Shown here in pieces: positions 24,442-62,567 of a stretch of 64,000 bases of DNA. The stretch is from Arcobacter sp. (GTDB taxonomy: Bacteria > Campylobacterota > Campylobacteria > Campylobacterales > Arcobacteraceae), in the NCBI GenBank assembly GCA_002869535.1, contig PKUK01000004.1, forward strand, positions 1 through 64,000, written 5' to 3'. Position 1 is the stretch's first letter, and each line of letters starts with the position of its first letter. The notes beneath the pieces were generated by a model that was not told the DNA's origin, made no database searches, and was given only the letters and a program-made list of their open reading frames with translations. Both the position numbers and the translations under genes were made by a program.

Positions 24442-24909
24442 TTAGAACTCTGCGCTTGCAACCCAGTCAGCTGGCTCTTCTAAGAAAGTAACTATCTCTT
24501 CTAAAACCTTCTTATGTTTTACTTCTTCTGCTGCAATTTGTAAAAAGATTGACTTTTCAGTTACACTTTCTAGTTCTTCTGCTTTTTGTGCATAAAAGTT
24601 TTTAGAGTTCTCTTCTCTTGTTATCGCATCTTTATAGAATTGAACTTGTTCTTTGTCTAAATCAATATTGTCTTTTTCTTGAGTTAGTGTTTGAAAAATT
24701 GTTTTAGTATCAGTTATCAAATCTAATTTTTCTAAATCAATATCCTCTTTTTTCATCATATTTTTAAATATATTGTAATGTTTTACCTCTTCATCTGCCA
24801 ACATAGTAAAAATTCTTTTTAAACCTGGATTTTGAGCTTTTGATACCATCTCTCGATAATAAGCTTCACCTTCTTTTTCAACCTTCATCGCATATTCATA
24901 CACATTCAT
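24442..24909 (-). CDS. Rubrerythrin/ferritin-like di-iron protein
   Basis: 155 aa four-helix bundle with two EExxH iron motifs (DEEVKHYNIF about residues 39-48, and AEEVKHKKVLEEI about 127-139) and further Glu ligands in VEKEGEAYYREM and REENSKNFYAQ. It lacks the C-terminal rubredoxin domain of true rubrerythrins. A role in oxidative stress or iron handling is likely. The start follows AAGGGGCGAG. It lies downstream of the candidate small RNA pair on the same strand. Confidence 0.8.
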   Translation of the reverse strand: MNVYEYAMKVEKEGEAYYREMVSKAQNPGLKRIFTMLADEEVKHYNIFKNMMKKEDIDLEKLDLITDTKTIFQTLTQEKDNIDLDKEQVQFYKDAITREENSKNFYAQKAEELESVTEKSIFLQIAAEEVKHKKVLEEIVTFLEEPADWVASAEF

Positions 24910-25064: not shown

Positions 25065-25131
25065 AAAAAAAAAGAGGCTTCGCGGGCCTCTTTTTTAGGA
25101 GAACAAATGAAGACGTTCGTATTCGTCTTAT
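25065..25131 (-). ncRNA. Candidate small RNA A (tandem copy 1)
   Basis: On the minus strand a TGTTATAAT extended -10 (TATAAT at 25143-25138) is followed about 7 bases later by a predicted transcript of about 67 nt. It has a 5' hairpin AAGACG-AATACGAA-CGTCTT (25129-25110), a single-stranded segment with CUCCUAA, and a terminator GAGGC-CCGCGAA-GCCTC followed by nine T. The whole arrangement recurs at 25239-25312. The CUCCU stretch could pair with Shine-Dalgarno sites. The opposite strand reads AGGAG-AACAA-ATG and eight codons to a stop (25107-25133), so a plus-strand reading is possible but explains fewer features. Confidence 0.65.
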
Positions 25132-25137
25132 AAGAAA

Positions 25138-25164
25138 ATTATAACAGCTGATGATAAATGAATA
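25138..25164 (-). promoter_or_regulatory. Promoter of candidate small RNA A
   Basis: The minus strand reads TTTATCATCAGCTGTTATAA followed by T: an extended -10 box TGTTATAAT plus an upstream segment shared, with two differences near the box, with the promoter of copy B. The conservation extends past the -10 to a TTTAT..ATTTATCATCA stretch. Confidence 0.55.
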
Positions 25165-25238
25165 AACAACCAAAGGTTAACAAAAAGACAACCCGATAAG
25201 AAATTGATAAATTTATATAAAATGAGAGATTTTTAGGC

Positions 25239-25312
25239 AAAAAAAAAGAGGCTTCGCGGACCTCTTTCTTTTTAGGAGTAAATGAAAAAAAAGACGTTCG
25301 TATTCGCCTTGT
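25239..25312 (-). ncRNA. Candidate small RNA B (tandem copy 2)
   Basis: Same layout as copy A: TGTTATACT -10 (TATACT at 25324-25319), 5' hairpin AAGGCG-AATACGAA-CGTCTT (25310-25291), U-run, UUUACUCCUAAA segment, and terminator GAGGT-CCGCGAA-GCCTC followed by nine T. Compared with copy A, one base changes in each stem, and both changes give G.U pairs only in the minus-strand RNA (they would be A.C or C.A mismatches on the plus strand). Both loops are unchanged. This is good evidence of a structured minus-strand RNA. Length about 74 nt. The opposite strand has AGGAG-TAA-ATG and ten codons. Confidence 0.65.
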
Positions 25313-25318
25313 AAAGAA

Positions 25319-25345
25319 AGTATAACAAGTGATGATAAATGGATA
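25319..25345 (-). promoter_or_regulatory. Promoter of candidate small RNA B
   Basis: The minus strand carries TTTATCATCACTTGTTATAC followed by T: an extended -10 TGTTATACT with the same upstream segment as copy A. Confidence 0.55.
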
Positions 25346-25417
25346 AATAATCAATTGTTAATGGATGGATAACTGGTATATGAATCTTGCTCTTGAACAC
25401 CTAAAGGTTTCCGCTCT

Positions 25418-25445
25418 TTACTTTCTTTTGTTGAAAAGAAAGTAA
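25418..25445. repeat. Perfect hairpin of an intergenic repeat
   Basis: TTACTTTCTTTT-GTTG-AAAAGAAAGTAA is a perfect 12-base inverted repeat. It starts the palindrome cluster that continues to 25644. It resembles repeated intergenic sequences I recall from other proteobacteria; copy number in this genome cannot be seen here. Confidence 0.75.
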
Positions 25446-25459
25446 CAAAGAAAGCAACT

Positions 25460-25644
25460 GCCGAGTTGATGAAGGCGAAGCTTCCCTCGCTTATTGATTT
25501 ACTCTTTTCTGCCCTGTAAAACTCGCTAAAGAGTGCATTTAGCACTCTTCTTACGCTCAGACAGTTTCGGGCTTGTTTCGAAAAGAGTAAATCAAACGCT
25601 CGGCTTCATCAAAGGGAGAAGCAAAGTCTATAATATATATTATA
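25460..25644. repeat. Nested palindrome cluster upstream of the OLD-family gene
   Basis: The outer arms GATTTACTCTTTT (25496-25508) and AAAAGAGTAAATC (25581-25593) are perfectly complementary. Inside are GCCC/GGGC, CTGT/ACAG and GAGTGC-ATTTA-GCACTC (25531-25547). Outside, GATGAAGGCGAAGCTTCCC on the left and the complement of the right flank share rearranged modules (GATGAAG, GAAGC, CCGAG). The stretch ends with the 16-base palindrome TATAATATATATTATA (25629-25644). No ORF is convincing. It is an intergenic repeat and possibly an insertion boundary. Confidence 0.65.
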
Positions 25645-25727: not shown

Positions 25728-27563
25728 ATGATAATCACATCAATAAAAATTCAAAATTATAGAGGAATAAATGATGAACAAATTATTCCTTTATCAAGTT
25801 TCTCTTCTATTATTGGGAAAAATGACTCTGGAAAATCTATTGTATTAAATGCAATAGCTAGTTTTTTAGATATTAAATCTTTTCAAATAACAAATTCTGA
25901 TTTTTATGACGAGTCAAAATCTATAAAATTTGAAATTGAATTTACAGATGATGACTTATATAGGAAGATAGAATCTAAAGTAAAAAAAAAGATTAAAAAA
26001 AATGATGGATTAGACTATTTTCTTAATGATATTATTCAAGATAATAAAATATGTATAAAAAAAGAAATAAAAAATGTTGGAAAGACATTTTCTAGTATAG
26101 AATTATTAGTGAATGATTATGAAGGAGATTTTTCTTTTTTATATGAAAAAATGGATGAAGAACTAAATCAAATTATTTCAAAACATTCAATTGAAATTCC
26201 AGTAGATGGCAAAGGTAGAAATTCAAAATTAGAAAAAATTGAATACATTAAGAAGTACTGTGAAAGTAATAACATTAAAAGAAAGTTAATTTATATTGAG
26301 GATATTTATAAAATTGATTCTCTTTTACCTGCAGTTGAATTGTTCGTATCAGATTATGGATTAGAAGCTGATACTAAATTTAAAACTAATTCTGTATCTG
26401 AAATAGAAGATTTTTTTGCTATTGAAACTGCAAGCAATGAAAGTAGATTGAAAAAAATAGAATTAGATATTCAAACAGAAATGAACAAAGAAGCTGAATC
26501 AATTAAAAGTTATATGTCTGATTATACTTCTAGTTTGAATAAAGTCCAAATTCAGCCTACTATTAGTTGGAAAGATTCTATTAAAAGTGTTGATGTTAGT
26601 TTTCAATTTGATGGAGATTCGAAACCAATTCCAATGTCTCACAAAGGAACGGGATATAGAAGACTTTTTATGGTTGCAAGGTTTAGATATTTAGCTGAAA
26701 AAAACAAAGGGCATGATGTAATTTATTTAATTGAAGAGCCAGAAACATTTTTACACCCGTCTGCTCAAGAAGATTTACTTTTATCTTTGTTAAATTTATC
26801 ATTAGAAAATCAAATAATAATAACTACACATTCTCCTGTCTTTGTAGGCCATACAGATGTTAGTTCTGTAATTTTATGTCAAAAAAATGACACTTCAACT
26901 TATTCCAGTTCTAATGTTTTTAAATCAAAAGAAGAAGAGTTTATAGTTAAGATTATAGAAGATATTGGTATTAAACCTTACTATAATCTTGTTGATAAAT
27001 TTGAAAAAATTGTTTTTGTAGAAGGTCCAGGAGATGCAAATTTTATTGATTCTTTATCTAGGGGACTATTTGGAAAAAAGTTAAAAGATAATGAAAAAAT
27101 ATTAATCTTACCTGGTGGTGGTACAAGTATTGAAAATTTTATAAATATAGATTACTTTAAAAAATCTAATAGGGAATTATATTTAATTTTAGATAGTGAT
27201 AAGCAAAACTCAAAAGCAAAAGAAGAAGAACAAAATGAAATAATAGAAAAATTTAAAGGTAGTGATAAGTGTTTTGCATATCTTTTGAATAAAAGATGTA
27301 TTGAAAATTATTATCATCCACGAACTATAGAAAGAATTTATGAAATAGAATCAGGAATTTTAGATTTTTTCGGTGAGGGAGATGATGTAAAAAAGATAAT
27401 TAATGACTTTAAAATATCATATAAAGAAAGTACTGGAAGACAATTACAATTTCCTACAAAAAATAATATGGATATTTTTAATAATATGAGAGAAGATGAG
27501 TGGAATGAGGTTATAGAAAATGATTTAGTTGATTTTATAAAGAAATTACATAACTTTAATTAG
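25728..27563 (+). CDS. OLD-family ATPase with TOPRIM nuclease domain
   Basis: 611 aa. An N-terminal ABC/SMC-type ATPase (residues 1-380) has IKIQNYRGINDE, Walker A IIGKNDSGKSIVL, a signature-like SHKGTGYRRLF, Walker B YLIEEPETFLHPSAQ and the H-loop TTHSPVF. A C-terminal TOPRIM domain (about 420-520) has FVEGPGDANFID and LILDSDK, metal ligands of OLD nucleases. Known relatives act in phage defence (P2 Old, GajA). No UvrD-like helicase or reverse transcriptase is adjacent, so this is a stand-alone OLD gene. It sits alone between repeat clusters, which suggests an acquired defence gene; target unknown. Confidence 0.88.
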   Translation: MIITSIKIQNYRGINDEQIIPLSSFSSIIGKNDSGKSIVLNAIASFLDIKSFQITNSDFYDESKSIKFEIEFTDDDLYRKIESKVKKKIKKNDGLDYFLNDIIQDNKICIKKEIKNVGKTFSSIELLVNDYEGDFSFLYEKMDEELNQIISKHSIEIPVDGKGRNSKLEKIEYIKKYCESNNIKRKLIYIEDIYKIDSLLPAVELFVSDYGLEADTKFKTNSVSEIEDFFAIETASNESRLKKIELDIQTEMNKEAESIKSYMSDYTSSLNKVQIQPTISWKDSIKSVDVSFQFDGDSKPIPMSHKGTGYRRLFMVARFRYLAEKNKGHDVIYLIEEPETFLHPSAQEDLLLSLLNLSLENQIIITTHSPVFVGHTDVSSVILCQKNDTSTYSSSNVFKSKEEEFIVKIIEDIGIKPYYNLVDKFEKIVFVEGPGDANFIDSLSRGLFGKKLKDNEKILILPGGGTSIENFINIDYFKKSNRELYLILDSDKQNSKAKEEEQNEIIEKFKGSDKCFAYLLNKRCIENYYHPRTIERIYEIESGILDFFGEGDDVKKIINDFKISYKESTGRQLQFPTKNNMDIFNNMREDEWNEVIENDLVDFIKKLHNFN

Positions 27564-61052: not shown

Positions 61053-62567
61053 TTAGAATCTATATCTTATATTTGCTGTTATATTTTGAGCTTGGGTTAC
61101 ATATGGAGTTACTGAACCTAAATTAGGGTTCCCATCATATCCAAAGAAACCATTACTTCCATAATAATCATAATTGATTTTTGTATATCTCAAAGACCAA
61201 CTCAATGCATTATTAATTTTAGAATTTCTATAAACTTCCCAAGCAGTACCACGTGTTGCTATTTTAGAGCCAACCATAGTATCTTCTCCATAGGTCATAG
61301 ATCTCCAATATTTACTACCTTTATTCCACTCGATTCCAATTCTTGAATCTTCTGTATCAATAGGACATGGAGCATTAACTCCTAACCAAATAGAACTACC
61401 AGTTTTAGATTCAGTTGAACCTAACATTCCTAAAGAGTTTGGATGTGTTTTAGATGCTGCAAAAGAAGCAAAGGCTATAGTATTATCAAGATAGTCAGAA
61501 ATCTCTTCTCCAATACCATCTGCTTTAAACATGATTGTTGCAAGTTCTAAATCACCAAAATCTTTAAAGGTATTATTTGAATTATTTCCATCAAACATAT
61601 CAGTTTGCGTAAATCCAATCATATTCCATGCTTTTGCATAGTTTGTGTGAATTGAGTATTGTCCATTATCATATGGAACAAAAATAAATCCTGCCATATC
61701 TATGTTTGGATTTTTTGTATCATCATTTGCATAATCAAGTCCATCTGAACTAAATCTTGGTTTTGCATTAGTTAGACCACGACCTGCACAAAATTTCCAC
61801 CACATACCTTGAACACCTGTGATTTTATCTAAATCAAATTTTGCAGAAAGACCATCAAACTCTACATTAACAGTATGAGAAAGTGCAGATTTTCTTGCTT
61901 GGTCAACTCTTAGGTTTATACCTAAACCATCAGTTGATGGACGACGTCCTACTGAAACTGCCCATGGTAAATCTTTATTACCCATAAATGAGTCGTCTTT
62001 ATATAACCAGTACGCTTCTTTTACTTTTAAAGTATTATCATTTGCATTTTCATTTGTAACCCAGTCAAAGTTTGCATATCCAGGACTTGTATTAGCTTGA
62101 GAGTGATTTGCAGAATCTCCATATGCTTTGTTGTAAGCTAGTGTACCTTTAAATATAGTATTGTCATTTGGCATATAAGCCATACCTAGCCACAACCTAT
62201 TTGTCATAAGTGCACTATTTTTAGCTTTTGTACCATTTGATAATTTATAGTTGATATTATCAACTTGTGTTCTAAAGTCAATATCCCATTTGATATTGTC
62301 ATTAGCATCATGAGTTTTAACATCATTGATTTTTGTATAGTTTTTTGCTACTTTTTTCTCAACTGTTGATAATCTTTTTTCTGTATCAGCAGGGAGTTTT
62401 AACTCTGTAGTTTTTTTTGTAGCTTCATTTACTTTTGCTTCAAGTAAAGAAAGTTGTGCTTTTAAAGCTTCAATTTGTGCTTGAAGTTCATCATTAGTTA
62501 GTTTTGCCCCAAATGATGATGTACTTAAAGCTACTACTAAAGATAAAGCAATACTTGTTTTCTTCAT
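61053..62567 (-). CDS. Outer-membrane porin of the Campylobacterota DUF3373 type
   Basis: 504 aa. Signal peptide MKKTSIALSLVVALSTSSFGA, then a coiled coil (about 24-80, ELQAQIEALKAQLSLLEAKVNEA) as in trimeric porins with a periplasmic tether, followed by a long series of amphipathic strands and a C-terminal aromatic end (ANIRYRF). Internal blocks such as SVGRRPSTDGLGINLR and GIEWNKGSKYWRSMTYGED fit the DUF3373 outer-membrane family as I remember it. It probably forms a general or major pore. The start has AAGGAGAACTT. Confidence 0.82.
   Translation of the reverse strand: MKKTSIALSLVVALSTSSFGAKLTNDELQAQIEALKAQLSLLEAKVNEATKKTTELKLPADTEKRLSTVEKKVAKNYTKINDVKTHDANDNIKWDIDFRTQVDNINYKLSNGTKAKNSALMTNRLWLGMAYMPNDNTIFKGTLAYNKAYGDSANHSQANTSPGYANFDWVTNENANDNTLKVKEAYWLYKDDSFMGNKDLPWAVSVGRRPSTDGLGINLRVDQARKSALSHTVNVEFDGLSAKFDLDKITGVQGMWWKFCAGRGLTNAKPRFSSDGLDYANDDTKNPNIDMAGFIFVPYDNGQYSIHTNYAKAWNMIGFTQTDMFDGNNSNNTFKDFGDLELATIMFKADGIGEEISDYLDNTIAFASFAASKTHPNSLGMLGSTESKTGSSIWLGVNAPCPIDTEDSRIGIEWNKGSKYWRSMTYGEDTMVGSKIATRGTAWEVYRNSKINNALSWSLRYTKINYDYYGSNGFFGYDGNPNLGSVTPYVTQAQNITANIRYRF

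Follow-up and report, generated by a model that had tools for sequence, protein, structure and literature searches.

Two tandem small RNA (sRNA) genes are predicted on the minus strand inside positions 25065-25345 of the window, the 64,000-nucleotide stretch of Arcobacter DNA analyzed here as a whole. Copy A would yield a transcript of about 66 nt (25066-25131) and copy B one of about 73 nt (25240-25312); their starts lie about 181 bases apart, and the two share 82% identity. Their neighbors, named by reading, are a rubrerythrin-like gene (24442-24909, minus strand) and an OLD-type ATPase gene (25728-27563, plus strand). Each copy is preceded on its own strand by an extended -10, TGTTATAAT for copy A (25138-25146), in which GTTATA is invariant across relatives, and TGTTATACT for copy B (25319-25327), called from the sequence. 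Upstream of these, at a position fixed in the family described below, copy A has an activator-type box, TTGTC-N6-TTAAC...TTTATCATC (25147-25191), a degenerate version of the family direct repeat TTAAC-N6-TTAAC, and copy B has the conserved box TTATC-N6-TTAAC-AATTGATT... (25328-25372). Within the predicted transcripts, stem-loop 1 is AAGACG-AATACGAA-CGTCTT in copy A (25110-25129) and AAGGCG-AATACGAA-CGTCTT in copy B (25291-25310), both supported by covariation. A single-stranded seed follows, CATTTGTTCTCCTAAA in copy A (25094-25109) and CATTTACTCCTAAA in copy B (25273-25286), and an intrinsic terminator with the loop CCGCGAA closes each copy (25065-25097 and 25239-25270; for copy B on fold and covariation). 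The minus-strand details of the preliminary description, namely the extended -10s, 5' hairpin, CTCCTAA, CCGCGAA-loop terminator and nine T, are all present in both copies. A dispersed repeat element lies upstream of copy B (25380-25640); the 740-kb contig C5 of the same genome holds four partial copies at 78-89% identity, and similar sequence is found upstream of the tandem pair in genomes G001 and G002.

The two copies are predicted to fold alike, with a stem-loop at the 5' end, then an open linker and finally a terminator, and their predicted folds have z-scores of -3.4 and -2.3. Between them, an A-U pair of stem 1 becomes G.U and a C-G pair of the terminator becomes U.G, changes that had been taken as a sign of selection for a minus-strand RNA structure. 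While two G.U changes are weak evidence alone, that conclusion is upheld by the relatives, whose stems, far from being unconserved as would have refuted it, are maintained through compensation. Among one-hairpin members, two-sided changes are seen in 8 of 18 pairs, with 98.6% of cells paired, and among two-hairpin members in 29 of 33; in neither set do any of 500 shuffles equal this, and the signal is lost in both when partner columns are slid. The alignments were fitted to the covariance models, which biases them towards structure, but the contrast is nonetheless large. G.U pairs are common on the minus strand. As relatives in other genera both match the models and carry compensatory changes, the structure of the pair is not a chance arrangement.

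To define these relatives, we combined sequence, pattern and covariance-model searches. By DNA search, pairs of copies turn up in two congeneric species, and one copy apiece in two other genera. A covariance model (R1) built from three copies, copy B included, matches at 73-116 bits in G001, G002, G011 and G027 and scores copy A at 88.8 bits; borderline R1 matches, read individually, include relatives with other stems on the same plan. Weak R1 matches of about 30 bits, at nine loci, lie inside genes or are plain terminators and were set aside. A promoter-plus-loop pattern finds 14 sites in 104 genomes of the family, 13 of which are such RNAs, against a control in which the reversed pattern gives a handful of matches. 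A second model (R2) was made for two-hairpin members and excludes sequence upstream of the -10; in a search of 399 genomes of the order its matches are confined to the bacterial family of the window apart from one weak and implausible exception (G130, 37 bits), rejected as it looks coding. We read more than 40 copies; a genome can have as many as four, often arranged in tandem, with a spacing of about 190-196 bp in G033, G014 and G116 and of about 1 kb in G020 and G107. The hallmarks of the family, which the window pair meets, are one or more RCGAA stem-loops, a single-stranded anti-start seed, an intrinsic terminator and an upstream TTAAC-type box. Rfam 15 gives no gathering match in the window and, over 12 homologous loci, no sRNA-family match near the gathering score, so the earlier remark that the family was not recognized was justified. 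On this comparative sequence evidence, the two RNAs are members of a real and apparently undescribed sRNA family of Arcobacteraceae type.

The upstream repeat is kept at a fixed distance from the -10. In 31 of 41 copies, TTAA[CT]-N6-TTAA[CT] starts exactly 45 bases upstream of the R2 model start; of the 1606 TATAAT sites in contig C5, by comparison, only 12 carry such a repeat at any position within the corresponding 75 bases. Most of the ten copies that lack the full repeat come from the clade of the window, in which a form with a degenerate first half (TTATC or TTGTC-N6-TTAAC) occupies the equivalent position. OmpR/PhoB-family response regulators bind sites of this form, 11-bp direct repeats that extend to the -35 region, and we infer from its shape alone that TTAAC-N6-TTAAC may be an activator site of that type. 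Response-regulator genes do not consistently adjoin the sRNAs. In G061 a gene for a secreted-looking protein (MRKFSKLLSLSVLLSVSLFASDD...) likewise has an activator-like box, TTAACTTTTGATTAA, in front of it and is a possible further regulon member.

The CUCCUAA segment lies within a linker, CAUUUGUUCUCCUAAA, that is the reverse complement of a complete translation start region; the copy A seed thus mirrors a Shine-Dalgarno site, spacer and AUG (TTTAGGAGAACAAATG). In the whole genome of origin, exact AGGAGNNCAAATGA occurs at three sites only: sRNA A itself, the start of cytochrome c553 and the start of the major porin. The c553 and porin sites recur in two sister species with at most 2 mismatches to the 18-base complement. 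The porin start of the window's own genome has two differences from the seed: it reads AGGAGAUC where AGGAGAAC would match, and it has C for U before AGGAG. When 836 heuristically called starts, drawn from contig C5 and the window only, are ranked by predicted pairing with the copy A seed, the top five are c553, a Haem_bd-domain protein, a DUF3373 outer-membrane protein, Campylo_MOMP and HP_OMP_2, with NapB 12th. The third of these is a candidate target in the window itself (61053-62567, minus strand; start region TAAGGAGAACTTAATGAAG), its 5' end being at 62567 and its lower end calculated from 504 aa. Signal-peptide-like genes make up 6 of the top 10; with other SD..ATGAA starts as the source of 80 control seeds the figure is 2.4, and 2 of these seeds reach 6. 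The enrichment stems in part from MKK starts. The copy B seed, whose predicted pairing is weaker, does far less well, as 36 of 80 controls match it for the top 10 and 4 of 80 for the top 20. With targeting by copy B so much weaker, the two copies may have diverged in their targets.

Pairing of outer-membrane protein starts with the sRNA seeds is a computational prediction. Action in trans on Shine-Dalgarno sites, as first proposed, gains comparative support in the absence of transcript data, and the proposed CUCCU pairing was, if anything, understated, as complementarity also takes in the spacer, AUG and following codons. Target prediction with the seed points to porin, cytochrome and TonB-receptor starts as likely targets; these, together with the activator-type repeat in the promoter, the many copies and the two seed classes, had escaped the preliminary description.

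Changes in the porin gene are matched by changes in the RNAs. In most genera the Campylo_MOMP start reads UUUAGGAGAACAAAUGAAAAAAUUCGC, which fits the class 1 seed, and the loop of stem-loop 1 is complementary to porin codons 4-6 and changes together with them: UACGAA faces UUCGUA in the genome of the window (copy A), UGCGAA faces UUCGCA in G011 and UGCGAU faces AUCGCA in G007. In G033 the loop region of the sRNA has an 11-base match with the porin. The independent events are few, and the test takes no account of phylogeny. The porin of G060 comes no higher than 6th of 376, and that genome has no other evident envelope enrichment. The porin leader also has a conserved GUUCGCGC, which complements the terminator loop CGCGAA(C), the copy A loop CCGCGAA being complementary to its UUCGCG; in contig C5 (740 kb) GTTCGCG is found once on each strand, on the plus strand within this porin leader. 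Co-folding of copy A with the porin predicts a joint seed and loop duplex.

A sister class of seeds, GUUUCCUUGUGUG (class 2), matches ACACAAGGA-type starts, those of TonB-dependent receptors. For the G014 seed, UUUUAUGUUUCCUUGUGUG, the TonB-dependent receptors, six in 400 kb, take ranks 1, 2, 3, 4, 6.5 and 9.5 of 392, which is equalled by none of 200 shuffles and none of 200 other-start seeds. The set was first noticed in the ranking and afterwards checked with the Pfam Plug model. Genome-wide, 8 of 10 Plug-domain genes of G014 pair at -13 kcal/mol or better, and its second porin also pairs with the class 2 seed (rank 3 or 14 in two rankings). In the class 1 genomes G000 and G060, Plug genes fail to pair with the seeds of their own genome, and in G033 only one of five pairs. 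Near-complements of the class 2 seed in the g19 genomes have mostly chance-level counts. A class 2 pattern run over genome contigs gave five named records, from Arcobacter, Halarcobacter or uncultured Campylobacteraceae; an exact-pattern scan of genome contigs with the window-type core gave no match. Class 2 loci keep one neighbor, a UvrD/PcrA-like helicase gene, in three genera, which indicates vertical inheritance. At ten loci the sRNA genes lie directly upstream of this helicase gene, and MsrP/MsrQ-like genes sometimes adjoin. In genus g13 (six loci) the first hairpin loop is AAUACGGAC or AAGCGGAC and not RCGAA, a change in sequence that suggests that class 2 lost the porin-codon contact there.

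These comparisons bear on other ways in which the RNAs could act. CUCCU, which the seed shares with the 16S rRNA 3' end, might make them general anti-Shine-Dalgarno decoys or a global translation brake rather than regulators of chosen envelope mRNAs, and moderate pairing with many starts would fit. We think this unlikely, as complementarity runs on through the spacer, AUG and codons, the conserved class 2 seed selects the G014 TonB receptors far above other start-derived seeds, and loop and porin codons co-vary. Still harder to credit is a decoy for protein, in which the RCGAA loops, strongly conserved and repeated, or the stems would titrate an RNA-binding protein in the manner of a CsrA sponge: the loop changes track the porin codons, as base-pairing explains, and both predicted transcripts lack the GGA motif, hence also the repeated GGA loops of CsrB/CsrC, and so are not CsrA sponges of known type. 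A functional plus strand, with a bidirectional terminator followed by a Shine-Dalgarno site and a very short ORF for a leader or signal peptide, is barely tenable, for although AGGAGAACAAATG is present with ideal spacing and ATG AAG ACG TTC GTA TTC GTC TTA TAA encodes MKTFVFVL, the peptides are unconserved, neither frame nor length being constant from copy to copy (MKTFVFVL, MKKKTFVFAL, MKKDVRIRLIKKL, MKNRRS), conservation on the minus strand extends upstream as far as the activator box, and the G.U pairs suit the minus strand.

Most likely, then, the RNAs are envelope sRNAs that block translation of porin and cytochrome, expression and repression being inferred. Put more fully, we regard it as probable that they are tandem, activator-driven, trans-acting sRNAs that work without Hfq and block envelope-protein translation. 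Family, structure, promoter box, complementarity and co-variation with the porin are there in the sequences; transcription, the identity of the activator, pairing in vivo and repression are inferences from them. The promoter would be weak by itself, and an OmpR/PhoB-type activator bound to the tandem TTAAC-type repeats immediately before it would turn the genes on, probably in response to envelope or nutrient stress. Every RNA would consist of one or two 5' stem-loops, the single-stranded anti-start seed and the intrinsic terminator. Its seed would pair with the Shine-Dalgarno site, spacer and AUG of Campylo_MOMP mRNA, and with the mRNAs of some cytochromes c and of other outer-membrane proteins, while the RCGAA loops would add contacts at porin codons 4-6 (UUCGYA) and at GUUCGCG in the leader. 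Ribosome binding would be blocked and less envelope protein made.

Hfq (PF17209) was not detected in 10 genomes, control genomes being positive. Campylobacterota are not known to have Hfq, and RepG and CjNC110/140/180/190 are trans-acting sRNAs of Helicobacter and Campylobacter; they have other sequences and other targets than the present family. How sRNAs control many mRNAs without Hfq is an open question in this phylum, which this family would allow to be put to the test, as it comes with predicted targets, a predicted promoter site and naturally occurring compensatory changes between RNA loop and porin codons. A wider reading, of a multi-copy, Hfq-free envelope regulon across the family with one activator, seed classes for each group of outer-membrane proteins and loop contacts in place of chaperone annealing, is a tentative one that we would stop short of calling probable. 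Were it true, the class split would set porin and cytochrome against TonB receptors and second porin, and the second and third contacts, through the loops, would be porin codons 4-6 and the leader GUUCGCG.

Among known systems, MicF/MicA-type sRNAs are antisense to the ribosome-binding site of the major porin mRNA and depend on Hfq; the Arcobacter-type RNAs resemble them in the predicted porin site and differ in bacteria, structure, promoter and Hfq dependence. OmrA/OmrB of Enterobacterales are twin sRNAs, activated by an OmpR-family regulator, that repress outer-membrane proteins, siderophore receptors included, by pairing near the start (PMC12692685). Twin genes and predicted pairing at outer-membrane protein mRNA starts are common to both, but Rfam scans reveal no sequence or covariance-model relation, OmrA/OmrB are Hfq-dependent whereas our genomes have no detected Hfq, their seed is at the 5' end and not between hairpins with extra loop contacts, and the activator is here inferred from the DNA site only. 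The best reading, by analogy and with repression inferred, is that the Arcobacter family works like OmrA/OmrB yet is not a member; if so, the enterobacterial circuit of activator, twin sRNA and outer-membrane protein would have evolved a second time, independently. The literature searched held no sRNA-porin system of this kind in Helicobacter or Campylobacter and no Arcobacter porin sRNA. Intergenic motifs of Arcobacter sp. L, the same bacterial group, were reported by Stav et al. 2019 (PMC6429828), who left Arcobacter-confined ones unnamed; the main text has a single sRNA, which is not the present family.

The porin mRNA leader is itself conserved, with an element AACGG..(Y)CGGA..GUUCGCGC..UCCGR..ACUG at nine loci within the 150 bases before the start. 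This element has no Rfam match, and RNAalifold finds no supported helix in the leader, the alignment having gaps. By eye, its stem CCGGA/UCCGG shows compensatory changes, for example to AAUUGGA/UCCAAUU in G107 and UGUCGGA/UCCGACA in G007.
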